DNA of 27,467 bases from a virus (IMGVR_UViG_3300005518_000036:1-27467), one strand, 5' to 3'; numbered from the stretch's first letter, positions 3,373 to 24,938 are shown. Notes: generated from the sequence alone by a model not told the origin. Numbers and translations are program-made.

Positions 3373-3611
3373 TGGCCACGCTGACGACCGCGCAGTTGGG
3401 CGAGATGCGCCGGGGCTCGGAAACCGAGCGATTCCCGCATAGCCATACCCGCGCGCAACTCAACGCCGCATTCCAGGCCGTCGAGGATCGCTTCCAGGTC
3501 GTGTCGGCCTCGTTCGGCACCGCCATCGAGACGGCCGCGCCCGGTGTGTTCAGCGGGAGCCAGAAGACGGCCATCGTGAAGTTCTGGGCGCGCCTGAAGC
3601 TGGGGATCTAG
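3372..3611 (+). CDS. Small hypothetical protein, 79 residues
   Basis: The GTG start shares one base with the previous stop (TAGTG), indicating translational coupling; the frame itself is open further upstream. The protein begins 'MATLTTAQLGEMRRGSETERF' and has a helical middle (AQLNAAFQAVEDRFQ) and a basic aromatic C-terminus (IVKFWARLKLGI). Its first half resembles the short linker or connector proteins found among fibre genes, but no family is recognised. It is soluble, with no signal or membrane segment. It belongs to the 2465-7179 run of late structural genes. Confidence 0.55.
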   Translation: MATLTTAQLGEMRRGSETERFPHSHTRAQLNAAFQAVEDRFQVVSASFGTAIETAAPGVFSGSQKTAIVKFWARLKLGI

Positions 3612-3614
3612 CCG

Positions 3615-4127
3615 GTGGCCACGCACATCGTCTCGTGCATGGGCGCCGGCACGGTGCCGGACGCCACGGGCTCGTGCTTCTTCAACACGTTCGATCAGAC
3701 GGCCACCAACGACGTGTTCAAGCATCTGGTGGCGCAGTTCATCGACCCCACGAGTACCGGCGAGCAGTTCGGCATCTACGGCACGTTCGAGGTGCCGCAG
3801 AACTACGTGGGGACGGCCGTCATCATCCCCCGGTGGACAAGCAGCGCCACCACCGGCAACGCGCGCTTCGAGTTCAGCTACCGGGCCATCGGGGGCGATG
3901 ACGCCGAGTCCCTGGATCAGACGACCTTCCAGGAGACGGTGATCGTGACGGACGCCGCCCCGTCCGCGGCCTTCGAGCGCAACACGCCAAGCATGGCGCT
4001 CACGTCAGGCAACCTCGCGGCGGGCGACACCGTGGAGTGGTACTTCACCCGCAAGGCTGATGGCAACGACACCATCGCGGCGGCGGTGACGCTGCACGAT
4101 CTGGGCTTTTCCTACGCGGACGCTTAG
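3615..4127 (+). CDS. Beta-rich structural/appendage protein
   Basis: This 170-residue protein uses a GTG start with GGGGA about nine bases upstream. It alternates short hydrophobic strands with Thr/Ser/Gly loops. Segments 'FEVPQNYVGTAVIIPRW', 'ARFEFSYRAIGGDDAESLDQ' and 'GDTVEWYFTRKADGNDTIAAAVTLHDLGFSY' form a pattern common in small beta-sandwich proteins of phage appendage clusters. No catalytic residues are evident. The next gene begins immediately at its stop codon (TAG followed directly by GTG). It is probably a virion surface or fibre-associated protein. This comes from composition and context, not a named family. Confidence 0.6.
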   Translation: MATHIVSCMGAGTVPDATGSCFFNTFDQTATNDVFKHLVAQFIDPTSTGEQFGIYGTFEVPQNYVGTAVIIPRWTSSATTGNARFEFSYRAIGGDDAESLDQTTFQETVIVTDAAPSAAFERNTPSMALTSGNLAAGDTVEWYFTRKADGNDTIAAAVTLHDLGFSYADA

Positions 4128-4910
4128 GTGGCCATCGACTTCGACGGGGCGGCGAGCAAGCTGGAGAACACGACGTACTCCATCACCACGTCGGGGATTC
4201 TCTCGCTCGTGTTCTGGAGCCTCGCGGATGGCGTGGGCGAGGCCAGCGAGGGCCGGATCATCACGCTCCCCGAGGGCGGCTCGTCGTTCCTCCGCCACCG
4301 GAACGCCACCGCCAACACGCTGGAGTTCCTCGCCGACTTCACGGGCGGCGGCTCGGCGGATGGCAACTTCAGGTTCACGGCCAACGATAACGTCTGGAAC
4401 AAGATCGGCTTCAGCTACAACGCCACGGCCACCACGAACGTGCCGGTGGTGGTGGTCAACGGCGTCACGGTGACGGTGACGGTGGTCACCACACCCGTGG
4501 GCACCAGCCCCACGTTCAGCGGCGGCTACTGCGTCGGCAATAACACCGCCGTTTCGCGCACCTGGGACGGGGCGATCCAGTACATGCAGGGCTTCAACGT
4601 CGCCCTGACGGTGGGCGAGATGATCCAGGCGTGTAACCGCCCGGGCTCCGTCAGCCGAGGCCGCACGCTGTTCCTGCGGATGCAGGACGCCACCGACGTG
4701 AAGGACTACTCCGGCAACGCGGGGCACGCGACGGCCACCACGCTGGGCACGCGCAACAGCGCGCCGAGTGCGCCGTTGTGGCCGGGGCGTGCCGGGTGGC
4801 AGGGGCAGAAGGCCGCCGGGGCCGCGACGGCCGCCGGCACGGTGTTCGCCTCCCGCGTGATCCAGAGCGCCCGGCGCAGCAGCCAGGGGCGCGTGCTGTC
4901 GGCGGCCTAG
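4128..4910 (+). CDS. LamG/concanavalin-like lectin-fold appendage protein
   Basis: This 260-residue protein starts with GTG directly after the previous stop. Residues 1-200 read like a laminin-G/concanavalin jelly-roll: 'IDFDGAASKLENTTYSITTSGILSLVFWS' at the start, 'NVWNKIGFSYNATATTNVPVVVVNGV' (the strand reporting displayed ligand area), 'WDGAIQYMQGFNVALTVGEM' and 'LFLRMQDATDVKDYSGNAGHATA'. These are the usual landmarks of LamG_3-type domains. The C-terminus (210-260) is a Gly/Ala/Arg-rich tail that may anchor it to another virion part. LamG folds bind glycans or proteins, so a receptor-binding or adhesive role is likely. Around 4456-4490 the DNA has a short GTGACG-type repeat encoding the Val/Thr run. 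Confidence 0.7.
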   Translation: MAIDFDGAASKLENTTYSITTSGILSLVFWSLADGVGEASEGRIITLPEGGSSFLRHRNATANTLEFLADFTGGGSADGNFRFTANDNVWNKIGFSYNATATTNVPVVVVNGVTVTVTVVTTPVGTSPTFSGGYCVGNNTAVSRTWDGAIQYMQGFNVALTVGEMIQACNRPGSVSRGRTLFLRMQDATDVKDYSGNAGHATATTLGTRNSAPSAPLWPGRAGWQGQKAAGAATAAGTVFASRVIQSARRSSQGRVLSAA

Positions 4911-4911
4911 C

Positions 4912-5922
4912 GTGCTGATCCCGATTGACGAGGTGGTGACGTTCGATGTGGTGACGCACCTCGCCTCGACGGGGGCCTCCACGAACGCCGACTCCTCCGG
5001 CACCTACGAGGTATACGAGGAGACGACGGACACCGCGATCCTCTCCGCGCAAGCCCTCGTGCTGCGCGCCGGGGCCACTGGCGTCTACCGAGGCACCTTC
5101 ACCGCGTCGGCCGCCAATGGCTTCGAGGCCGGCAAGTGGTACTCGGTCGTGGCCGCGTCCACGGTGAGCAGCGTCGCCGGCAAGGCGGTGGCGATGCACT
5201 TCCGGGTGGCCCCCGCGGAGAGCGTGGCCGGCGTGCCCGAGGTGGACGTGACGCACGCGGGCGGTGTGGCCGGCGCGATCCCGGCGGTCGCGGCGGGGGC
5301 GGTGGGCGGGCTGCCGGTGCTCGACGCGCGATTCAGGGTGTTGGCGCGGGACGGCGGCGCGCAGATTGCCATTGCTCAAACTGGCACGCTCTCCACGACG
5401 CAGGCGACCACCACCTTGACCGGCTACGGCGACGACCACTTCAACAATCGCTTTATGATCTGGTGGCCGGACGTGTCGGGAAACGGGGCCGCGATCATCA
5501 CTGACTACGACAGCGCGACTGGAATGCTCACGTGGTCGCCTGCCATCGCTGGCGCGCCCTCGAATGGAGACAGCGGATTCCTGTTCCCCGCCACCACCGG
5601 CCTCGCCGTGGGCGACCGCACGGGGAGCCTGAGCGGGAGCGTGGGCAGCCTCGGGGCCACGGCCAAGAGCGACGTGAACGCCGAAGTGCTCGACGTGCTG
5701 AACGTGGACACGTTCTCGCAGCCGGGCCAGACCACGCCGGCCGCCACCACGTCGATCCGCTTGATGCTCGCGTGGATTTATAAAGCATGGCGCAACAAGT
5801 CCACGCAGGATGCGACGGATTACAAACTCTACAATGACGACACGACTACGGTAGATCAGAAGGCCACCGTCTCTGACTCCGGCACAGTGTTCACCCGCGA
5901 CGAAGTGGGGACCGGGCCGTGA
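4912..5922 (+). CDS. Large beta-rich structural protein (tail/appendage)
   Basis: This 336-residue protein has a GTG start one base after the previous stop. The first 100 residues form an Ig-like module (a 'VVTFDVVTHLASTGASTNADSSGTYEVYE' opening, ending in 'AMHFRVAPAE'). Then comes a Gly/Ala/Val linker (about 105-140), a second beta module (about 155-230) and a C-terminal helix-plus-tail region. That last region includes 'RLMLAWIYKAWRNKSTQDA' and 'LYNDDTTTVDQKATVSDSGT', phrases that recur at the end of phage appendage proteins. No enzyme motif is visible. The last 67 bases overlap, on the opposite strand, the 3' end of the HNH endonuclease gene. A virion appendage or fibre component is likely. 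Confidence 0.65.
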   Translation: MLIPIDEVVTFDVVTHLASTGASTNADSSGTYEVYEETTDTAILSAQALVLRAGATGVYRGTFTASAANGFEAGKWYSVVAASTVSSVAGKAVAMHFRVAPAESVAGVPEVDVTHAGGVAGAIPAVAAGAVGGLPVLDARFRVLARDGGAQIAIAQTGTLSTTQATTTLTGYGDDHFNNRFMIWWPDVSGNGAAIITDYDSATGMLTWSPAIAGAPSNGDSGFLFPATTGLAVGDRTGSLSGSVGSLGATAKSDVNAEVLDVLNVDTFSQPGQTTPAATTSIRLMLAWIYKAWRNKSTQDATDYKLYNDDTTTVDQKATVSDSGTVFTRDEVGTGP

Positions 5923-6326
5923 CAGGTTCTCGCGCATCTCGAGGTCGCCCGCTGCGGCTTACGCCTAGGCACGAAGAAGCGGCCACACCGCTCGCACCGG
6001 ACAGGTTGCGGGTGCCACTTGGTGTGGTGCAGTCGCGCGTGTGCAGCGCGCGTCGTGAGTTCAAGGTTATCAAGACGATTGTCTGTCTTGATTCCATTCA
6101 AGTGATGCACAAGCTCGGCCTTGGTCAGCAAGCGTTTCATGCTTGTCGCCATGACCAGCCGGTGTTCGGTGATGTAGCCCTTCGCGTCACTCATCGGGTG
6201 CCAGGGTGCCCAGATGTAGACGTATCCATACGAGCCAATGTATCGACCGCCGCGCCAGGAATTGCCCGTTGCTCCAAAGCGCCCAGTCAGGTGCTTGCCG
6301 GTGTATCCCCTCTTTCCAGGTTCCAT
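5856..6326 (-). CDS. HNH homing-type endonuclease
   Basis: This 156-residue protein (ATG 6326; an in-frame GTG at 6353 would add nine residues) carries a clear HNH nuclease core. 'SWRGGRYIGSYGYVYIW' (23-39) and 'GYITEHRLVMA' (50-60) lead to 'LVHHLNGIKTDNRLDNLEL' (72-90), with His74-His75, Asn77, Asn83 and Asn87 in the expected places and His96/His100 after. Cys111, Cys114, Cys131 and Cys135 form a probable C-terminal zinc-binding module. Such genes are free-standing mobile nucleases that nick or cut target DNA and spread by repair. It is the only minus-strand gene inside the late plus-strand block. Its DNA is visibly richer in A and T than its neighbours, suggesting recent arrival. No good ribosome-binding site is seen. 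Confidence 0.88.
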   Translation of the reverse strand: MEPGKRGYTGKHLTGRFGATGNSWRGGRYIGSYGYVYIWAPWHPMSDAKGYITEHRLVMATSMKRLLTKAELVHHLNGIKTDNRLDNLELTTRAAHARLHHTKWHPQPVRCERCGRFFVPRRKPQRATSRCARTCHGPVPTSSRVNTVPESETVAF

Positions 6327-6382
6327 GGTTTGAATGGTAGCACCGGATGCCACTAGATTCGAGAGACAAACGCGCGTCCGCG

Positions 6383-6553
6383 ATGAACCCGGCCATGCCG
6401 TGGCGGGGCCTGTGGCCGCTCCCCGATGGCACGGTAGGCACGGGCGACCGCGCGATGGCCGACTTCATGTACTTCACCGCAGGCGGTGGGGGCACGCCTC
6501 CTGTCTCCGGTGCAAGCGATTACATTCCCACGTGGCGCCCAAGGAGGCGATAG
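6383..6553 (+). CDS. Small hypothetical protein, 56 residues
   Basis: This short plus-strand frame lies between the HNH insert and the next structural gene. From ATG 6383 it encodes 'MNPAMPWRGLWPLPDGTVGTG' and continues with 'ADFMYFTAGGGGTPPVSG'; an upstream in-frame ATG at 6347 lies within HNH-flanking sequence. The stop (6551-6553) sits within the ribosome-binding region of the following gene, and base composition returns to that of the late genes. Length and Gly/Pro/Trp content fit a short linker or peptide of the appendage cluster. No family is recognised and no strong ribosome-binding site is seen. It may be the surviving part of a longer gene disturbed by the HNH insertion. Confidence 0.45.
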   Translation: MNPAMPWRGLWPLPDGTVGTGDRAMADFMYFTAGGGGTPPVSGASDYIPTWRPRRR

Positions 6554-6555
6554 TC

Positions 6556-7179
6556 ATGGCCGACGCCGAAGTCACGATCACGCATAGCTTCGTGTCCACG
6601 AAGTCGGATGGCGCGGACACCACGAAGGTCAAGCCGTCGGACTGGAACGCCGCGCTGATCGGCGCGGGCGGCGACGACGGCGAGGTCGTCACCTTCGACT
6701 CCGCGTTCAACTCCGGGCTGGGCGCGCACCGCCGCGCGCAGGTGCTGAGCAGCCAGCACACCACGGTGGGCAACGTGGGCGGCGGCTCGGATACGCTCAT
6801 GTCCTACGTGCTGCCGGCCGCGACCCTGGGGAGCAGCGACCGCATGGTGTCCATCATCGGCGCGGGGCGCACCTCGGCCACCGGCTCGGCCAAGACGCTC
6901 GTAGTGCTCGTGGGGGCCGCGGCCTATGTCCTCAACCCGGTCACCACGAACCCAAGCGGCTCCACCTGGAAAGCGGAGCTGATCCTCACGCGCCTGACGG
7001 CCACCACGCAGCGGCTCACGGGCTGGTGCTCGGTGGGCTCGCAGATGCAGACGACGCTGATCGAGTCGCCCGTGGAGAACCTGGCCGCGGCCGTCACGCT
7101 GGCGTTCGCGGCGACCGACGGCGGCTCCGTCACGGACGCGATCCGCCAGGACGAGATGATCGTCACGCTCCTGAACTAG
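6556..7179 (+). CDS. Tail-fibre-type structural protein
   Basis: This 207-residue protein starts at ATG 6556 behind an excellent AAGGAGG site (6541-6547); the longer open frame upstream runs through the HNH-flanking region and is not used. Its N-terminus 'ITHSFVSTKSDGADTTKVKPSDWNA' is a motif seen at the start of many phage tail-fibre or appendage proteins, in the general form H-F-S-x-K-x-D-G-x-D-x-T-x-V-x-P-S-x-W-N. The rest (60-207) is Ser/Thr/Ala-rich with beta-strand periodicity and no catalytic motif, consistent with a fibre head or adaptor. It is the last gene before the tail-tube protein A gene. A role in fibre assembly or host contact is likely. Confidence 0.65.
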   Translation: MADAEVTITHSFVSTKSDGADTTKVKPSDWNAALIGAGGDDGEVVTFDSAFNSGLGAHRRAQVLSSQHTTVGNVGGGSDTLMSYVLPAATLGSSDRMVSIIGAGRTSATGSAKTLVVLVGAAAYVLNPVTTNPSGSTWKAELILTRLTATTQRLTGWCSVGSQMQTTLIESPVENLAAAVTLAFAATDGGSVTDAIRQDEMIVTLLN

Positions 7180-7183
7180 CGCC

Positions 7184-8026
7184 ATGTCCACCGATCTCCA
7201 GATCACCAACATGGTGCTGCGCCGGCTCGGGGATAGCCCCGTGTCGGCCACCACCGAGCAGACGACGAAGGCCCGGCTGGTGGCCGAGCTCTACGCCACC
7301 ATCCGACAGGCCACGCTGGCGGCGCATCCGTGGAACTTCGCCCTGTCGCGCCGCACGCTCCTGGCCTACACCGTGCCGGCGGCCACGCTGACGCCGGGCA
7401 CGGGGGCCACGGTGGTGGACACCACGGGCGTGACGTTCACGGCCTCGGCGGCCGTGTTCGTCAGCACCGACGTGGGCAAGGTGCTCGACCACATCGCCGG
7501 GACGGGCACCGCGACCATCACGGCGTTCTCAAGCACCACCGTGGTGACGGCCACCATCACCGAGGCGTTCCCGTCGCTGGCCGCCATCGCGGCTGAGGAC
7601 TGGCGGCTCAATTACGCCCCGCCCGCGTGGGGGCCGCTCTATACCATCCCCAAGCCCGCCGATGCCCTGCGCGTGTGGCGACTGGAGGACTCGACGCCCT
7701 ACGAGGTGGAGACGAACGGCACGCAGGAGGTCATCGTCACCGAGTCGGCGTCGATCAACGCGCGCGTGATCACCGACGTGACGGATCCGACGCGGTTCAC
7801 GCCCCTGTTCGTGACGGCGTTCGTCTCGCATCTGGTGGCGATGTGCGCCGAGCCTATCACGGGCCAGCAGGCCAAGGGCAACGCCGCGTATCAGCTCTAC
7901 GAGCTGACGCTCAAGCGCGCCCGCACGATGGACGGCATGGAGGGCTCGGCGGCGGTCCTGCGCTCGCGGGATCTCATCGATGTACGCGGCGGTGGCGGGG
8001 ACGCCACCCGAGCATGGCCGCGCTGA
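7184..8026 (+). CDS. Tail tubular protein A (T7 gp11-like head-tail adaptor)
   Basis: This 280-residue protein is predicted to form the ring joining the portal to the tail nozzle. The opening 'QITNMVLRRLGDSPVSA' followed by 'ELYATIRQATLAAHPWNFAL' is characteristic of the gp11/tubular-A family. So is the later 'WGPLYTIPKPADALRVWRL' and a long helical C-terminal half with 'PLFVTAFVSHLVAMCAEPITG'. Between these, residues about 68-142 (7385-7609) form an extra beta domain with 'STDVGKVL ... ITAFSSTTVVTATI ... AEDWRL'. This extra domain resembles one in the tail B protein downstream. In T7 the B gene follows at once; here three genes intervene. Confidence 0.85.
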   Translation: MSTDLQITNMVLRRLGDSPVSATTEQTTKARLVAELYATIRQATLAAHPWNFALSRRTLLAYTVPAATLTPGTGATVVDTTGVTFTASAAVFVSTDVGKVLDHIAGTGTATITAFSSTTVVTATITEAFPSLAAIAAEDWRLNYAPPAWGPLYTIPKPADALRVWRLEDSTPYEVETNGTQEVIVTESASINARVITDVTDPTRFTPLFVTAFVSHLVAMCAEPITGQQAKGNAAYQLYELTLKRARTMDGMEGSAAVLRSRDLIDVRGGGGDATRAWPR

Positions 8027-8032
8027 TCTGAT

Positions 8033-9241
8033 ATGGCTGTCGCTATTGCGTGGACGCTCGCGCTCGATGCCACTGGAAGCTCCGGCTTCCAGGGGCTCGC
8101 CGACATTGGGAACAGTCGGCTCCTTGCCACGCGCCTCAATCGACAGGTGTGGCGCTCGGCAGATCGCGGGGCGACGTGGACGCAGTTGAGCGATCTGCCG
8201 ATCGGGGCAGGGGCCGCGACCTCTCGCATCCTCTCCATGGCCACGGACGAGTGCTTGGTCGCCGTCCAGAATGCCGCCGCTGGCGCATTGCACATCTATC
8301 GCACTACGGACGGTGGAGATAACTGGACGAAGGTCCACGACACCGTGACGGGGTTCACGCTCACGATCTGCCACGGGTTCCTGCAAACCGGGGCGAGTAC
8401 CGTCACAGCCTATGGGTCATTCAATCCCACCCTGGGCGGCGGATCGGATTACCACTTCCTGACTTCTGGGGATCGTGGGGCATCATGGACGCCGGGCTCG
8501 CTCATCAACGCCACCGTCGCGGGTTCCTCGGTGGGCGGGATGGCCCTGGTCGGCTCCACGTTCATCGCCGGCCAAGCTGATTTCAGTGCTCCCCCGTTCG
8601 TCTGGACCTCGGGCGATCAGACGACGTGGACCAAGGTCATCCTGCCCGGCAACACGGCGGGGACAAATGCGAACACGTGGGATCTGGTAGCCCTGAGCGC
8701 CACCGCCGCGCTGGCCACGGGTGGATTCATCAACGACAGCGACATTGGCCCGTCGCCAGACCATCAAGTGCTGTGGATCTGGAAGACGACCGACGCGGGC
8801 GCGTCGTGGACTCGCGTCCCCAATGCGTCGATAGCCTCGGCCCCGACCGATAACGTCTCCGCTGCCGCCCTGATCTTCTTGGACACGGATATTGCGGTGG
8901 TGGGCTACGGCTACACGAATGACCCCGAGATCGGCTGGCGGCACACCGAGGATGGCGGGGCCACATGGGCGGTCAATACCGGCAGCCTCCCGCCCGATGC
9001 GACGTTCTACTCCCCCGCGCAGATGGTGTTTTACAACAATAACGACGGCACTGGCCTACTCGTGTCGGCCGCCGGGTGGGACGAAGCCGCGAGCGGCGGC
9101 GGCGAAATCTGGCTCGGCGCGGTGACCGGTCTGCCCTTTGAAGAAGACGATCAGCAGGACGCCAGCTCCGCCGTCACGCCTGCCGTCGTCCACTGCTCCG
9201 GCGCGGCGTTCGCCACTAAAGGATGCCGGCAACGATGCTGA
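8033..9241 (+). CDS. Asp-box (BNR) beta-propeller protein, sialidase-like fold
   Basis: This 402-residue protein contains six Asp-box motifs of the S-x-D-x-G-x-T-W type. They are SADRGATW (about 42), TTDGGDNW (91), SGDRGASW (145), a degenerate TSGDQTTW (192), TTDAGASW (252) and TEDGGATW (304). The regular spacing of about 50 residues predicts a six-bladed beta-propeller like that of sialidases and related glycan-binding proteins. The catalytic Arg triad and Tyr/Glu of true sialidases cannot be recognised with confidence, so binding rather than cleavage is possible. There is no signal peptide, consistent with a virion part. It lies between the tail-tube A gene and the subtilase gene, suggesting a tail-mounted receptor-binding or glycan-processing protein. 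The C-terminus ends in a short Cys-containing tail (KGCRQRC). Confidence 0.8.
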   Translation: MAVAIAWTLALDATGSSGFQGLADIGNSRLLATRLNRQVWRSADRGATWTQLSDLPIGAGAATSRILSMATDECLVAVQNAAAGALHIYRTTDGGDNWTKVHDTVTGFTLTICHGFLQTGASTVTAYGSFNPTLGGGSDYHFLTSGDRGASWTPGSLINATVAGSSVGGMALVGSTFIAGQADFSAPPFVWTSGDQTTWTKVILPGNTAGTNANTWDLVALSATAALATGGFINDSDIGPSPDHQVLWIWKTTDAGASWTRVPNASIASAPTDNVSAAALIFLDTDIAVVGYGYTNDPEIGWRHTEDGGATWAVNTGSLPPDATFYSPAQMVFYNNNDGTGLLVSAAGWDEAASGGGEIWLGAVTGLPFEEDDQQDASSAVTPAVVHCSGAAFATKGCRQRC

Positions 9242-9507
9242 CCCACGATCACGCCTGCGCCGGCTGCGGCAACACGTGGCCCTGCGTCAACCGCGTCTGC
9301 ACGGACGTGCGCGTGCGCTCCTGTGGCTGTGACGCCCCGGTGCCCGTCGTGGTGACGTGGACGATGGGCCTGGAGGACGCCGGGCATAGCCTGCACGAAG
9401 CAGCGCAGGCGTTCCGCATGCGCGGGGACATCGCGCAGGCCGAGGGGTGCTTGCGGGTGCGCGCGGCGCTGCTCCGGCAAGTCCAGCGACTCGCGGGGCG
9501 CGGCTGA
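9235..9507 (+). CDS. Small Cys-rich, zinc-finger-like protein
   Basis: This 90-residue protein starts at ATG 9235, overlapping the end of the propeller gene, with AAAGGA 11 bases upstream; ATG 9223 is in frame but has that site inside it. The N-terminal half has Cys spaced as CAGC, then CVNRVC and CGC, with a His-rich start (LTHDHA), fitting a small zinc ribbon or knuckle. The C-terminal half is a helical, Arg/Ala/Gln-rich hairpin (HEAAQAFRMRGDIAQAEGC). Its stop overlaps the start of the subtilase gene by one base (TGATG). A chaperone, adaptor or regulator of the neighbouring protease is possible, but no function can be assigned from the sequence. Confidence 0.65.
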   Translation: MLTHDHACAGCGNTWPCVNRVCTDVRVRSCGCDAPVPVVVTWTMGLEDAGHSLHEAAQAFRMRGDIAQAEGCLRVRAALLRQVQRLAGRG

Positions 9508-11168
9508 TGGCGGCGCGCGTCTCGGTCATCGTGGGGTTCGCGGCCGGCGTCAGCGAGGTGGAGCAGCGGGCCGTCTACGCCACGCTCGGCACCGGCAAGC
9601 CGGTGGGGATGGTGAAGTCCCGTCGGCACATCGTCAAGGTGCTGCCGGAGCGCGTGCAGGAGGTGCTGGCCACGCTCCGCGCGGATGCCCGCGTGGCGTA
9701 TGCCGAGGTGGACAGCAGCATGCCGCTGGCGCTGACGCCGAACGATCCCCTGCTCTCGGCGCAGTGGCACCACGCCAAGATCGGCACGTCGGGGACGGGC
9801 GGGGCGTGGGACACGCAGACAGGCGCGGCGGGGATCATCATCGCCATCCTCGATAGCGGCATCGACGGCACGCACCCGGACCTCACAGGCCGGCTGGTGG
9901 GCGGCTACAACACGTTCACGGCGACCGCGGCGGCCGGCGACTGGTTCGGCCACGGCACCAAGGTGGCCGGCGTCGCCGTCTCGACGGGGAATAACGCCAT
10001 CGGCGGGGCGGGCGTCGCCTACGGGTGCAAGCTGATGCCCGTGGTGATCTCGGACAATACCGGGTACGCCACGGCCTCGCGCATCGCCATCGGGATCGAT
10101 TGGGCCGCCGATCACGGGGCGAAGATCATCAACATCTCGATCAGTGGCCTCGCAGGGAGCAGCACTGTGAAGGCGGCGGCCGAGGCCGCACGGGCACAGG
10201 GCGTGTGGGTGGTGGCCGCGGCGGGCAATAGCGGCACAGTGGACCCGTATCCCGCCACCACGGCCCTGTTCTCGGTGACGGCCACCGATCAGAACGACGC
10301 CCTGTGGTCAGGCTCGAGCCGGGGCGCGTTCGTGGATCTGGCCGCGCCGGGCTATCAGATCCGCACCACCTCGCCGGGGGCTACGTATTCCGTCTCGACG
10401 GGCACCTCGTTCGCCGCGCCCATCGTGGCCGGAGTGGCGGCGCTCCTGTGGTCGGAGATCCCGACGCTGACGCTGGCCGACGTGGAAACGGCGCTGACGA
10501 CGACGGCCACGGATCTGGGCACGGCCGGCTACGATCAGAGCTTCGGCTACGGCCGCGTGAATGCGGCGGCGGCCATGGCGTCGATCACCACGCCGACCGC
10601 GGACACCACGCCGCCCGTCGTCACGATCACGAGCCCCGCCAACGGGGCCACCGCGAGTGGCAGCCTCACGGTGAGCGTGACGGCCACCGATGCCGGCGGG
10701 GTGGCCAGCGTGACGCTCTACCTCGACGGCGCCCTAGTGGGCACCGATGTGCTCTCGCCCTATACCTTCGTGCTGAACACCACGCCGTACACCGCCGGCA
10801 CGCATACGCTGGTGGCCAAGGCCACCGATGTGGCTGGCAACGTGGGCACCTCGGCGGCCGTTACCTTCACGGTGGCCGCGCCCGTCGTGATCCCGTCCAG
10901 CACCGGGACGGTGGTCATCACGTCCGCCGTCATCACGGGGGGCAATCTTCTCACCGTGATCGTGACGGCCTCCGATCCGGCCGGCATCACGAAGGTGGAC
11001 TGCTACCTCGACGGCGTGCTCAAGCGCACCAAGACGACCGCCACGTCCTACAAGTTCACCATCGGCGTGGGGTCGCTCAGGACGGGCTCACGGCATGCGG
11101 TCCAGGTCAAGGCCACCACCGCGACGCCGGCCGAGATTCTCTCCACGGTGGTCGAGGTCGTCAAGTAA
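9507..11168 (+). CDS. Subtilisin-family (S8) serine protease with two Ig-like domains
   Basis: This 553-residue protein carries a full subtilase core. Residues 1-72 resemble an I9-type propeptide/inhibitor. The catalytic Asp116 lies in 'IAILDSGIDGTHPD', His149 in 'DWFGHGTKVAG', the oxyanion Asn241 in 'VVAAAGNSG' and Ser301 in 'STGTSFAAPIVAGVAALL'. The usual GHGTH has Lys for its second His, a non-catalytic position. From about 370 two Ig-like domains follow ('PPVVTITSPANGATASG' and 'VVITSAVITGGN'), typical substrate or surface attachment modules. There is no signal peptide, so it is not secreted by the general pathway and fits a virion-borne or cytoplasmic enzyme. It lies between tail-tube genes A and B, stop-start overlapped on both sides. 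Host-surface protein cleavage or tail-protein maturation are candidate roles. Confidence 0.9.
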   Translation: MAARVSVIVGFAAGVSEVEQRAVYATLGTGKPVGMVKSRRHIVKVLPERVQEVLATLRADARVAYAEVDSSMPLALTPNDPLLSAQWHHAKIGTSGTGGAWDTQTGAAGIIIAILDSGIDGTHPDLTGRLVGGYNTFTATAAAGDWFGHGTKVAGVAVSTGNNAIGGAGVAYGCKLMPVVISDNTGYATASRIAIGIDWAADHGAKIINISISGLAGSSTVKAAAEAARAQGVWVVAAAGNSGTVDPYPATTALFSVTATDQNDALWSGSSRGAFVDLAAPGYQIRTTSPGATYSVSTGTSFAAPIVAGVAALLWSEIPTLTLADVETALTTTATDLGTAGYDQSFGYGRVNAAAAMASITTPTADTTPPVVTITSPANGATASGSLTVSVTATDAGGVASVTLYLDGALVGTDVLSPYTFVLNTTPYTAGTHTLVAKATDVAGNVGTSAAVTFTVAAPVVIPSSTGTVVITSAVITGGNLLTVIVTASDPAGITKVDCYLDGVLKRTKTTATSYKFTIGVGSLRTGSRHAVQVKATTATPAEILSTVVEVVK

Positions 11169-13552
11169 TGCCCGCCCACCCGTTCAAGACGGGCTTCACG
11201 TCCGGCGAACTCACCGAGCGCCTCGGGGCGCGGGTGGACGTATCGAAGTACGCCCAGGGTGCCTCCTGTCTCAAAAACTTCTCCGTGCATGTCCACGGGG
11301 GCGCGGCGGTGCGGGCGGGCACCGTCTACATTGCGGAGACGAAATCCTCCGGCGCGTTCCAGTTCGACACGTTCCAGGAAGATGCCTTCGACGTGGAGAC
11401 GGGCAAGGCCGGCGTCCGCCTGATCCCGTTCCAGTTCTCCATCGATCAGGCATACATGCTGGAGATGGGCAGCGGGTATATCCGGTTCTTCCAGAACCGC
11501 GAGCAGATCCTTGATGTGAACGGCGACCCCCTGGAGATTGCCTCGCCCTATACCGGGGACGCGCTCCGGGCGCTCCGGTGGACGCAATCGGCCGACGTGC
11601 TCTACATCGCGCATCAGGACTACGCCCCCCGCAAGCTGTCCCGGGTGACGGCGGATCCCACGTTCGTGCTCACCGAGATCACCTTCCTGCCGCCGCCCAC
11701 CACCGAGGTGCCGCTGACGCTGGCGGCTGATCTCACGCTCTCGGCGGTGAGCGGCAGCGGCGTCACGGCGACGGCCACCAACCCCGTGTTCCAGACGGGG
11801 GACGTGGACCGCGTGCTCAAGTCCGGGGCGGGGCGCGCCATCATCAACGCGTTCACGTCGGCCACCGTGGTGACGCTCGACGTGCTGGACCCCTTCGAGG
11901 ACGTGGGCCCCTTCGCGGCGGGCGACTGGACGCTGGAGGGCTCCCCCTCGGGCACCATGACGCCCAGCGCGAAGGAGCCGCTGCACAAGATCATCGCGCT
12001 CACCGGCTCGCTGGATGCGTTCCGCGCCGAGGACGTGGGCAAGTACGTCACGATCCACAGCGGCGTCGTCAAGCTCACCGTCTACTCGTCGCCCACGCTC
12101 ATGTCGGGCGAGATCCAGAAGCTCCTGACGGCCATCACGGCGGCGCCCGCGGGCGCGTGGACGCTGGAAGCGCCCGCGTGGAGCGTGGCGCGCGGCTATC
12201 CGGGCACGGTGGGGTTGCAGGGCCAGCGGTTGCATTGGGCGGGCTCACCGGCGCAGCCGGATACCGGGTGGAGCTCGGTCGTGGCCGACTACGAGAACCA
12301 CGGCACCGGCGCGGACGACGACGACGCCCTCGTGTGGACGATTGCCCAGGATCAGGTGAACGTGATCCGGTGGCTCAAGTCGCTCAAGACGCTGATGGTG
12401 GGCACGACCGGCGGCGAGTTGCGCGTCCACGGCGAATCCGACGGCCCGCTCACGCCCTCCACCATCCAAGTGGACGACGAGAGCCTGTGGGGCGCCGACT
12501 TCAACGTGGACGCGATCCGGGTGAGTAACCTCGTGCTCTTCCTCCAGCGTGGGGCGCGCAAGGTGCGGGAACTGGCGTTCAGCTTTGAGGTGGACGGCTA
12601 CCTCTCGCCCGATCTGTCGCTCCTGGCCGAGCATCTCACGCAGGACGGCATCGTGGAGATGGCGTACCTGCCACAGCCCGACTCCACCTTGCTGGCCATT
12701 CGCAGCGACGGCGTGCTGCTCGGCATGACCTACGAGCGGCCGGAGCAGGTGGTGGCGTGGCACCACCACGTCACGGCTGGCACGTTCCAGTCGGTGGCCG
12801 TCATCCCCAACGACTGCGGGCACGAGATCTGGGTGGCGGTGGAGCGCGGGTTCCACACGCTCGACAATGCGTTCCAGGCCAGCGCCTTCCAGGCCGACGC
12901 CTTCCAGGTGCGTGGCGTGGCGCTGGAGAGCAAGCGGTTTCTCGAGGTGTTCGAGGGGGCACTCAACACCGATGCGGCGCTGGTGTACGATGGCCCGCCC
13001 GCGACGCAGATCGCCATGCCACACCTCGAGTCAGCTCCAGCCGCCGCCGTGTGGACCGAGCGCGCGTTCCAGGAGGACACGTTCCAGGAGGATCTGGTGC
13101 AGGGCGCGCTCATGGGCGCGGAGACGGGCACCGTGCTGGATGGCCTGTTCACGCTCTCGGCGGCACGCAGCTACGTCGAGGTGGGCCTGCCCTTTGACGC
13201 GCATATTGAACTACTGCCCGCCGAGCTCCAACTCGGCAACGGCAGCGCGCAGGGACGGCGGCAGCGGTACAACGAGCTGACGCTGCGGCTGCTCTGCACG
13301 TATGGCGACATTCGGGTAGGCCCGCGCGAGCGTGGGTACACCTTGCCGGCGGGGGGCGATCCGCTGGACTGGCAGGGCCAGCTACTCACCTATCCCGAGG
13401 GCGAGGGCGGCGGGGAGACGGAGTTCACGGGCGACGTGCGGGTGACGGAGGTCGGCTGGACCCGTGGGAGCCGGCCGCGCATCGTGCGCAGCGAGTCCTT
13501 GCCCATCGTGGTGCTGGGCGTGGGCGGCAGCATCCAGGTGGACGATGGCTAG
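11168..13552 (+). CDS. Tail tubular protein B (T7 gp12-like nozzle protein)
   Basis: This 794-residue protein starts at ATG 11168, sharing one base with the protease stop (TAATG). The opening 'FKTGFTSGELTERLGARVDVSKYAQGASCLKNF' pattern, then 'GGAAVRAGTVYIAE' and 'RLIPFQFSIDQAYMLEMGSGYIRFF', is the classical beginning of gp12-type nozzle proteins. Length matches T7 gp12, which is also about 790 residues. Two related beta modules lie at about 191-256 and 281-334 ('GDVDRVL', 'EDVGKYV', each ending in a W-T-L-E segment). Three F-Q-x-D-type repeat patches occur at about 63, 567 and 632. The downstream genes follow the T7 order 13-14-15-16. Tail nozzle assembly is the expected role. Confidence 0.88.
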   Translation: MPAHPFKTGFTSGELTERLGARVDVSKYAQGASCLKNFSVHVHGGAAVRAGTVYIAETKSSGAFQFDTFQEDAFDVETGKAGVRLIPFQFSIDQAYMLEMGSGYIRFFQNREQILDVNGDPLEIASPYTGDALRALRWTQSADVLYIAHQDYAPRKLSRVTADPTFVLTEITFLPPPTTEVPLTLAADLTLSAVSGSGVTATATNPVFQTGDVDRVLKSGAGRAIINAFTSATVVTLDVLDPFEDVGPFAAGDWTLEGSPSGTMTPSAKEPLHKIIALTGSLDAFRAEDVGKYVTIHSGVVKLTVYSSPTLMSGEIQKLLTAITAAPAGAWTLEAPAWSVARGYPGTVGLQGQRLHWAGSPAQPDTGWSSVVADYENHGTGADDDDALVWTIAQDQVNVIRWLKSLKTLMVGTTGGELRVHGESDGPLTPSTIQVDDESLWGADFNVDAIRVSNLVLFLQRGARKVRELAFSFEVDGYLSPDLSLLAEHLTQDGIVEMAYLPQPDSTLLAIRSDGVLLGMTYERPEQVVAWHHHVTAGTFQSVAVIPNDCGHEIWVAVERGFHTLDNAFQASAFQADAFQVRGVALESKRFLEVFEGALNTDAALVYDGPPATQIAMPHLESAPAAAVWTERAFQEDTFQEDLVQGALMGAETGTVLDGLFTLSAARSYVEVGLPFDAHIELLPAELQLGNGSAQGRRQRYNELTLRLLCTYGDIRVGPRERGYTLPAGGDPLDWQGQLLTYPEGEGGGETEFTGDVRVTEVGWTRGSRPRIVRSESLPIVVLGVGGSIQVDDG
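11354..11392 (+). repeat. F-Q-x-D repeat patch 1 in tail protein B
   Basis: Residues about 63-75 read AFQFDTFQEDAFD, three units of the F-Q-x-D-x type. The patch is inserted between conserved strands of the gp12-like N-terminal region, where T7-type proteins have a loop. It is one of three such patches in this protein. Confidence 0.6.
12869..12909 (+). repeat. F-Q-x-D repeat patch 2 in tail protein B
   Basis: Residues 568-580 read AFQASAFQADAFQ, encoded by near-identical GC(G/C)TTCCAG units every 15 bases. The period-five FQ pattern is the same as in patch 1 and patch 3 (13064-13096), suggesting spread of one short unit within the gene. Confidence 0.6.
13064..13096 (+). repeat. F-Q-x-D repeat patch 3 in tail protein B
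   Basis: AFQEDTFQEDL is encoded by two close copies of TTCCAGGAGGA, with period five in the protein. It matches patch 1, which also has FQED. Confidence 0.55.
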
Positions 13553-23018: not shown

Positions 23019-23257
23019 GGCGTCTGCTCCTGTGGCGGCGGCCCGATCTTGCACCCGTACCGCTCGGCCAGCGCGTGCGTGGCGTTGAGCATGCCCTGCA
23101 CGATGGCGATGCGCTCCTGGGGCGTGTACGTCTGGATCGGCCAGAGCAGCGACCAGCGATACTCGGCGTCGTAGGCGATGACGATCTGGCAGCGGACGGG
23201 CGGGGCGAGGAGATCGCTCGTGGGGGAGCGGAGCCAGCCGAGGAGGCGGCGGATCAC
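23015..23257 (-). CDS. Small hypothetical protein, 80 residues
   Basis: The GTG start at 23257 overlaps the methyltransferase stop as GTGA, and its own stop overlaps the next start as ATGA. The N-terminus is basic (MIRRLLGWLRSPTSD), then 'QIVIAYDAEYRWSLLWPIQTYTPQERIAIVQGMLNATHALAERYG' suggests a small alpha/beta fold with a helical end, and the tail is Pro/Gln-rich. No membrane or zinc motif is seen. It is clearly part of the coupled operon between the methyltransferase and the zinc-binding gene. No function can be assigned. Confidence 0.6.
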   Translation of the reverse strand: MIRRLLGWLRSPTSDLLAPPVRCQIVIAYDAEYRWSLLWPIQTYTPQERIAIVQGMLNATHALAERYGCKIGPPPQEQTP

Positions 23258-23892
23258 AGCGGGAGCACCTGCTGCGCCAGCCGCTTGGCGGCGATCTCGC
23301 AGTACCGCTCCTCGATCTCGATGCCGATGGCGCGATTGCCCATATCCTTGGCGGTTCGCAACGTCGTGCCAGAGCCGCAGAAGGGGTCTAAGACGATCCC
23401 GCCAGGATCAAGCCCGTAGATCAGCGGAGTGCGGACTTGCCCCTGCCCCCACTTGTGGAGCACCGCGCCTGCCCACGCTCCAGGCTCGACGGAGAGTTCG
23501 TCTGAGATGCACTTGTTGTGCGCCGGCCATGTCATCGGCCAGCCGTTCGTGAACCACAGCACGGGCTTGAAACACGCCTCGACGTGGAATCCCCACATCC
23601 GTGGCCGCGCGCCGTCGTTCGGGACCGTACACAGCCAATGCCAGCGGTAGACCTTCGAGAGCGTGGCGATCACGTGGGGCACTTGGTAGTGGCCGCAGAA
23701 CGTGAACAGCGATCCACCGGGCTTGAGCACGGGAGCAGCGAGCGTCAATGCATCCCAGCAGTGGGCGAACGCTTTGGGATAAGGCGGGTCCGTGAACACC
23801 ATATCCACGCTGGCGTCAGCGAGCCCCGGCAACACCTCCCGGCAATCCCCGTGGTAGATCGTGATGCCGTCCTGCTCGTAGTAGGGGGTCAC
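23254..23892 (-). CDS. DNA methyltransferase, N6-adenine/N4-cytosine beta-class
   Basis: This 212-residue protein uses GTG 23892, which overlaps the upstream stop as GTGA; ATG 23922 would add ten residues but breaks the overlap pattern of this operon. Motif IV, DPPY (35-38), comes first in 'DMVFTDPPYPKAF'. The AdoMet motif I, 'DPFCGSGTT' (169-177), is near the end, preceded by 'HKWGQ', and is followed by 'RAIGIEIEERYCEIAAKRL'. DPPY before FxGxG is the beta-class order, and DPPY suggests adenine N6 over cytosine N4. The short length indicates a compact target-recognition region (about 80-145). No restriction enzyme partner is seen, so it is a solitary modification enzyme protecting phage DNA or regulating it. 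Confidence 0.88.
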   Translation of the reverse strand: MTPYYEQDGITIYHGDCREVLPGLADASVDMVFTDPPYPKAFAHCWDALTLAAPVLKPGGSLFTFCGHYQVPHVIATLSKVYRWHWLCTVPNDGARPRMWGFHVEACFKPVLWFTNGWPMTWPAHNKCISDELSVEPGAWAGAVLHKWGQGQVRTPLIYGLDPGGIVLDPFCGSGTTLRTAKDMGNRAIGIEIEERYCEIAAKRLAQQVLPL

Positions 23893-24938
23893 GGTGCGAC
23901 TCGGGCGAAGATCACGAGGCATACTAGCCCCACGGGGGGCGTGCGAAGCGGGAAACTCGTGAGACTCAGCACGCCCGCGATGACGGCGGCGGCCGACCAC
24001 GGATCCCCCCACGTCACCCCGCTGCCCACGCGGTAGACGAGCAGGGCGACGGTGGCGAGGCCGGCGAGTCCGTACTCCCACGCGAGGTGGGCGGGACAGC
24101 AGTGGAGATCCCCCTTCGTCAGCTGCGTGTGGTAACCCGCTTCCCACCTGAACAATGCCCGCGCCATCGTGTCGGGCCCCTCGCCCCCCCACCCGGCCTC
24201 CCGCCGCTGCCGCCACGCCAGCCGGAGCGCCCGGCCCCGGACGGCTAGGGAGTCGATAGAACTCCCCCGCGGCGTCACGTCCAGGAGCCGCCACAGGGGG
24301 CCCGGGAGCGTGTGTTCATAATCGTGCTCACTCCGCGCCCAGACGGCCCCTAGCGCGGCGGCTAGGGCCCCCAGCGTGGCGCTGAGCAGGAGCCCTGAGC
24401 CCGCTAGCACGGGCAGGCCCACCGCCAGGGCGGCCAGCGCCCCCCACGAGGGCCCCGTGATCCACAGGCCGAGCCCCAGCGCCGGCCACAGGCCCCACGG
24501 GGCGAAGGGCAGGCACAGGGCAAGGTAGGCCGCCGCCATCGTCCGCTGGCCGAAGGTGCCGGAGGGGGAGCGGCCCTCCTCGGGGTTGAGCCGCCGGCGC
24601 TGCCACTCGAGGATGCCCACCGTCACCACGCCCCAGGCCACCCAGGCGAGGGGGACGACCTCGAGCGTGGCCCGGGGCACCGCCCGCACCGCGAACCAGC
24701 CCGCCGCCACCGCCATCCACGCCACCAGGGGGCCGAGCTCCCGGTGGGAGCGCCAGCGCCAGGAGAACCAGAAGGCCAATGGGGCGAACACGGGCTCGGC
24801 CATGGTGAGCCAGAGGCCGGCGGCCAGGAGCGTGCCCCGGAGCCACCAGTCGCGGGCGCGGCGGAGGTGATCCGTCGTGAGTTGGGGCACGGGCAGGAAG
24901 GGAGCGAGCGACGCGCAGAGGGCCACGAGCCACGTCAC
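23889..24938 (-). CDS. Polytopic membrane protein, O-antigen ligase/polymerase-like (WaaL/Wzy)
   Basis: The GTG start at 24938 overlaps the previous stop as GTGA, giving 349 residues; the frame is open further upstream. About eight to ten membrane helices are visible. 'SGTFGQRTMAAAYLALCLPF' (126-145) resembles the GTFGNxNxxAxYL motif of the family. After a large soluble loop (about 203-275, Arg-rich, with GGEGPDTM at 251-258), 'DLHCCPAHLAWEYGLAGL' (277-294) resembles the family's H-N-x-Y-L-x-x-x-x-E-x-G-x-x-G stretch, though the His is displaced and two Cys are present. These enzymes polymerise or transfer O-antigen onto lipid A core. In a phage this suggests serotype conversion or superinfection exclusion. 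The key His/Arg residues are not confirmed. Confidence 0.6.
   Translation of the reverse strand: MTWLVALCASLAPFLPVPQLTTDHLRRARDWWLRGTLLAAGLWLTMAEPVFAPLAFWFSWRWRSHRELGPLVAWMAVAAGWFAVRAVPRATLEVVPLAWVAWGVVTVGILEWQRRRLNPEEGRSPSGTFGQRTMAAAYLALCLPFAPWGLWPALGLGLWITGPSWGALAALAVGLPVLAGSGLLLSATLGALAAALGAVWARSEHDYEHTLPGPLWRLLDVTPRGSSIDSLAVRGRALRLAWRQRREAGWGGEGPDTMARALFRWEAGYHTQLTKGDLHCCPAHLAWEYGLAGLATVALLVYRVGSGVTWGDPWSAAAVIAGVLSLTSFPLRTPPVGLVCLVIFARVAP

Follow-up and report, generated by a model that had tools for sequence, protein, structure and literature searches.

A pro-subtilase and an Asp-box propeller encoded between the tail adaptor and nozzle genes of a short-tailed phage

In a linear virus record of 27,467 bases (GC 68.7%), referred to here as the window, three genes are located between those for the gp11-like adaptor and the gp12-like nozzle of a short tail. 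They encode an Asp-box propeller, a small Cys-rich protein and a pro-subtilase, and occupy an interval of ~3.1 kb. Gene order, gene overlaps, domain content, an intact active site and a prodomain were established directly, as were the absence of the arrangement in relatives and the linkage of Asp-box genes to gp11 in some of those relatives. We hypothesize, with evenly balanced confidence, that these genes form a late, tail-linked adsorption module in which a virion-associated pro-protease and an adhesin would clear host surface protein.

The gp11/gp12 locus and its genomic context

On the plus strand, the window encodes a scaffold-like protein, the major capsid protein, a small gene at the position of the decoration-type protein in relatives, several accessory genes and gp11, followed by the propeller, the Cys-rich gene, the subtilase, gp12, a GNAT-like protein, internal virion proteins and an endolysin (Table 1). 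Homologues of both the adaptor and the nozzle of the gp11/gp12 short tail are present (phrog_394 and phrog_376). The initial annotation had described the genome as T7-type, which is correct for the two tail genes but wrong for the phage overall: by gp12, the nearest named phages are Pelagibacter phage Baldr, HTVC203P, Burkholderia phage BcepC6B and Yersinia phage YeP5. These matches identify the phage as one of BcepC6B / BPP-1 / Pelagibacter HTVC010P type that has a gp11-gp12 tail, and not as a T7 autographivirus.

Table 1. Features of the window and, in the last row, proteins of relatives that share a C-terminal motif
Feature	Position	Strand	Evidence
LamG/concanavalin-like lectin-domain protein	4128..4910	+	Laminin_G_3 1.2e-5, just under cut-off; phrog_31148 1.1e-16
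Putative appendage-type protein, just upstream of gp11	6550..7179	+	Position and sequence by eye
gp11-like adaptor (tail tubular protein A)	7184..8026	+	phrog_394 4.7e-33; alignments
Asp-box beta-propeller protein, 402 aa	8033..9241	+	Regular Asp-boxes; sub-cut-off Pfam; PDB phmmer 1.2e-6
Cys-rich small protein, 94 aa (90 aa from ATG 9235), 7 cysteines	9223..9507	+	GC3 0.89 in frame
S8 pro-subtilase, 553 aa	9507..11168	+	PF00082 8.8e-47; Big_7 twice; thermitase 3.7e-45; AlphaFold2; Foldseek
gp12-like nozzle (tail tubular protein B)	11168..13552	+	phrog_376 7.1e-145
C-G-H/A-P-x(4-5)-C tail proteins	L231 2923-4038, 9001-10227; L232 3766-4050, 9001-10260; L233 1698-3023		

The order and coordinates of the three coupled or abutting genes between gp11 and gp12 hold as initially annotated, with successive spacings of 6, -19, -1 and -1 nt from gp11 through the propeller, Cys-rich and subtilase genes to gp12. 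Overlaps of stop and start codons link the last four genes: the Cys-rich gene overlaps that of the propeller by 19 nt, the Cys-rich stop and subtilase start share TGATG (9505-9509), and the subtilase stop and gp12 start share TAATG (11166-11170; gp12 start ATG 11168). The TGATG overlap corrects the subtilase start from the previously proposed GTG 9447 to ATG 9507. The late structural operon runs through the cassette without interruption, no promoter- or terminator-like site being present on the plus strand within 6900-11600, and all three frames show the codon-position GC of real genes. Subtilase codon usage matches that of the structural core (correlation 0.965), so this gene is well settled in the genome. 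The propeller gene is a GC3 outlier (0.79 versus 0.88-0.97 in other genes; codon correlation 0.864), which suggests a separate, later acquisition; the three genes therefore need not form one functional unit.

A second expansion lies beside the cassette, with 5,252 nt separating the major capsid gene from gp11. This enlarged region encodes the LamG protein, by its domain matches a second candidate adhesin, and the appendage-type protein, for which family searches returned no match. It also carries an HNH_3 endonuclease gene (PF13392, 3.9e-8) on the minus strand at 5856-6353, between two accessory genes; the late operon thus probably harbours a homing endonuclease. The same interval in other relatives holds accessory genes (e.g. 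in L200), and the region thus generally receives add-ons. Membrane proteins resembling O-antigen ligase/Wzy are encoded between the capsid and gp11 genes in L200 (7807-8895; PF04932 3.9e-5, below cut-off) and L235 (7544-8695; assigned by eye); these are possible lipopolysaccharide-modifying genes in a structural operon. Elsewhere in the window, a DNA methylase match (N6_N4_Mtase, 2.9e-20) was recorded at 23254-23916 within a 346-aa minus-strand ORF (23254-24294), and Rfam and tRNA scans of the window gave no match.

Three cassette proteins

The subtilase is a full subtilisin-type protease with Ig domains, as first described, to which the present analysis adds an overlooked prodomain (residues 1-68). 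The catalytic domain spans about 80-360 (PF00082, 160 bits), and Ig domains, both matched by Big_7, occupy the C-terminus at 371-456 and 469-552. Active-site residues D116, H149, N241 and S301 are intact and invariant in two subtilase alignments; with a complete triad and oxyanion Asn, the enzyme looks catalytically competent. The nearest solved protein by phmmer is thermitase 1thm. AlphaFold2 modeling from a 16-sequence alignment (pLDDT 78.7) yielded a prodomain, a catalytic domain and two Ig domains, and a Foldseek search with this model placed thermitase and subtilisins at the top (1tec 2.4e-26; thermitase 40% identity). The prodomain was modeled as b-a-b-a-b at residues 5-68; the N-terminus gave a Fervidolysin_NPro-like match at 0.0038, below cut-off, and aligns with the prodomains of three homologues from viral contigs (L097, L099 and L104). 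Model and alignment agree in giving the protein the I9-like N-terminal prodomain of S8A subtilases.

By hydropathy, no segment of sufficient strength for a signal peptide precedes the prodomain from either start. The maximum 12-aa hydropathy is 2.11, in a stretch that is itself a strand of the prodomain, versus 2.75-3.54 in the closest viral-contig homologues; there a signal peptide is followed by the same prodomain, whereas the window frame begins at the prodomain. The earlier remark that all three cassette proteins lack a signal peptide agrees with our result, none being recognizable in any of them. Thermitase and other secreted pro-subtilases (MEROPS S8A) share fold, catalytic residues and prodomain type with the window subtilase but are Sec-exported, whereas the latter starts directly at its prodomain within a phage tail operon. 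Among viral contigs, one weak match to the subtilase was found, to its Ig part. Many of the 80 subtilase loci in viral contigs encode long bacterial-type secreted enzymes, and none of the 80 includes gp11 or gp12. A bacterial chromosome-like MAG locus, 45% identical over the catalytic core, was rejected as a phage relative, having no gp11, gp12 or capsid match.

The propeller contains five Asp-boxes and one short (s-)Asp-box, at residues 42, 91, 145, 193, 252 and 305, following the consensus S/T-X-D/N-X-G-X-T/S-W (PMC2716378). Their spacing of 48-59 residues corresponds to about one blade, and shuffling the protein 20,000 times produced at least two Asp-boxes only twice. A six-bladed propeller, as initially annotated, fits this spacing: the six regularly placed boxes are confirmed, and the blade number is a reading of their spacing alone. 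Single-sequence AlphaFold2 gave a pLDDT of 34, and Pfam returned only Sortilin-Vps10/BNR models below cut-off, with no GH33 or GH58 (sialidase or endosialidase) family match. The best PDB match is the dispase autolysis-inducing protein, a Streptomyces protein that acts on a protease; since Asp-boxes drive the score, this match is a curiosity and not functional evidence. No close relatives of the propeller were found in viral contigs or annotated phages.

The third protein had been called zinc-like, a description that finds no counterpart in family searches: no zinc-ribbon family was detected in Pfam (E up to 1) or NCBIfam (E up to 0.01). Nor did Pfam, PHROG, NCBIfam or tblastn against annotated phages give any other match.

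The gp11/gp12 boundary in relatives and in known systems

The variability of the gp11/gp12 boundary was assessed in the best-scoring relatives, with gaps measured from best-hit matches. In virtually all of 193 other loci (192 contigs) the two genes sit side by side, with a typical gap of -1 to 5 nt; because the sample was chosen by score and many records are fragments, this demonstrates that an insertion like that of the window is rare, not that it is unique. No propeller or protease lay between homologous gp11 and gp12 genes in any of the 192 other contigs, and an S8 protease was found in 0 of 90 whole records of relatives. The cassette order is thus non-standard, as the initial annotation had stated, and no second phage with the gp11-propeller-subtilase-gp12 order was found among these contigs with both genes. 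On this comparison, the insertion in the window is more than chance, since the pair is contiguous nearly everywhere else.

Large gp11-gp12 gaps in L078 and L244 were rejected as insertions, their gp12 frames being broken. In L196, gp11 is duplicated in tandem and in frame within one ORF (3571-4668, 365 aa), and a 94-codon ORF without match sits between gp11 and gp12. L263 carries a minus-strand ORF (3494-4366) between the two genes, homing-endonuclease-like by eye and with no Pfam HNH match.

The window gp11 carries an FCCH-like segment (residues about 68-146) of a kind normally found in gp12, best shared with L194/L231, L232/L234 and L233 (GC about 0.66); an alignment of distant gp11 members revealed no conserved stretch. 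The segment probably matches the gp12 model, and a gap count from the earliest gp12-HMM piece was dropped for this reason. In all three of these nearest relatives, which come from IMG/VR, an Asp-box gene of about 408-441 codons lies directly upstream of gp11 and abuts it. Its product resembles the window propeller in size and in a Cys-containing C-terminal tail, and the gp11 subtype is the same; however, the gene is on the other side of gp11, no protease accompanies it, and global identity with the window propeller is low, at 17-27% for the two aligned, so that these genes count as putative orthologues only. A propeller next to gp11 is, by this linkage, a trait of a small clade, and its recurrence favours a tail or adsorption role for the propeller rather than chance cargo. 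Within the compared clade, the protease and the Cys-rich protein are confined to the window, so a tail role for the protease gains no comparable backing there, and with the propeller-type gene on gp11's other side in relatives, the notion of one conserved cassette was not upheld. In these relatives, a C-terminal C-G-H/A-P-x(4-5)-C tail recurs in different adhesin-like proteins (LamG-type and Asp-box) of a single phage, perhaps as a common anchoring or metal-binding tag. The tail of the window propeller, with cysteines C388, C398 and C402, is looser.

The window is not the first case of a subtilase at a phage tail locus, as annotated genomes of phiSA_BS1 and Atu_ph07 precede it. In the Staphylococcus phage phiSA_BS1 (Baoshanvirus), HOS99_gp021 is an S8 subtilase (PF00082 6.2e-30) encoded in the tail/baseplate cluster between a glycerophosphodiester phosphodiesterase gene and a tail-fibre gene, overlapping the preceding gene by one base. 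As in the window, its N-terminus is prodomain-like (by eye) without a clear signal peptide; unlike the window, the phage is a myovirus of a Gram-positive host, and gp021, about 28% identical, lacks Ig domains, a propeller and a Cys-rich partner. No report of gp021 in the virion was found in the papers searched. The Agrobacterium phage Atu_ph07 encodes gp329 (YP_009611994.1), which combines S8 and Ig-like (He_PIG) domains as in the window, lies one gene from a tail-fibre gene, and likewise has a prodomain-like N-terminus (by eye) with no clear signal peptide. It differs in its length of 1,251 aa and in belonging to a 490-kb jumbo myovirus without gp11/gp12, and is 28% identical over the catalytic domain. 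Bacillus phage subtilases are free enzymes outside structural clusters, some of them annotated as intracellular serine proteases. Seen here for the first time are an adaptor-nozzle short tail as the setting of a pro-subtilase, its position at the gp11/gp12 boundary and its propeller neighbour.

Possible roles of the cassette

From this arrangement we infer a virion location, a role for each part and a protease substrate. The propeller, together with the LamG protein encoded upstream, would form an adhesin attached at or near the adaptor/nozzle that recognizes a host surface polymer. The endosialidase of phage K1F (GH58), a trimeric tailspike with a stalk and a C-terminal chaperone, likewise joins an Asp-box propeller to a short-tailed phage, whereas the window propeller is a lone 402-aa protein without a glycosidase family match. 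An Asp-box propeller can thus serve as a phage tailspike. The K1F propeller has six blades (PMC2716378). In T7, the fibres are held in a groove formed by gp11 and gp12 (PMC6702177). No known tail-docking domain was identified on the three proteins by Pfam or PHROG, gene adjacency alone is no proof of protein contact, and further fibre genes may be encoded beyond the ends of the window, itself a fragment. The subtilase, which has no signal peptide by hydropathy, would be translated together with the nozzle protein as a zymogen inhibited by its prodomain, ride on the particle through its Ig domains or the Cys-rich partner, and mature by autoprocessing. The mature enzyme could then cleave a host target (a proteinaceous surface layer, a pilus or an outer-membrane protein), letting the short tail reach the envelope. 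A more specific version, in which an autoactivating subtilisin zymogen is docked at the adaptor-nozzle junction alongside a propeller adhesin, with independent counterparts in the staphylococcal and Agrobacterium myophages, is offered tentatively.

The main rival to a virion protease is a soluble late enzyme freed at lysis, its gp11/gp12 position serving only late expression: the pro-form would fold in the cytoplasm, become active outside and digest debris, receptors or matrix, so that progeny spread. The lack of a signal peptide, a prodomain typical of extracellular enzymes, the absence of a tail-docking domain and the free state of most described phage subtilases, encoded outside structural clusters, are all consistent with it. 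Tight translational coupling to the nozzle gene, a boundary that is intact in about 190 relatives and the pro-subtilases at other phages' tail loci make it rather unlikely. Passenger or anti-host cargo, cleaving for example a defence or competitor protein and inserted by chance at a permissive boundary, is less probable still: although the L196 and L263 ORFs occupy the same boundary, the window has its own HNH endonuclease and propeller codon usage deviates, the genes are inserted precisely, in frame order and with translational coupling, and the subtilase has an intact active site and ameliorated codon usage. A protease acting in assembly or maturation, where it would trim virion proteins (e.g. 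internal proteins or gp12) during morphogenesis, would suit a gene within the morphogenesis operon and a prodomain able to delay activity; we regard it as improbable, as no S8 protease accompanies these structural genes in relatives (0 of 90 records), so that the virion needs none, and the thermitase-like fold predicts broad specificity. An assembly chimera of two genomes, conceivable for a single metagenomic contig with no second copy found, is highly improbable in view of the exact stop/start overlaps at both subtilase ends, a subtilase codon usage equal to that of the phage core, and gp11 and gp12 flanking in the expected orientation.

Enzymes by which virions breach the host surface are well documented where polysaccharide or peptidoglycan is the target; our literature search found no report of a virion subtilase and no clear case of a virion protease directed at host surface protein. 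If the proposed virion-associated pro-protease and adhesin are real, the zymogen-bearing particle would be the protein-degrading counterpart of depolymerase tailspikes. A protease riding on the tail would reveal how podophages get through S-layers or proteinaceous coats, and would provide a testable explanation of why unrelated phages have signal-less pro-subtilases at their tail loci. The gp11/gp12 boundary also stands out as a site at which a phage can gain functional parts.
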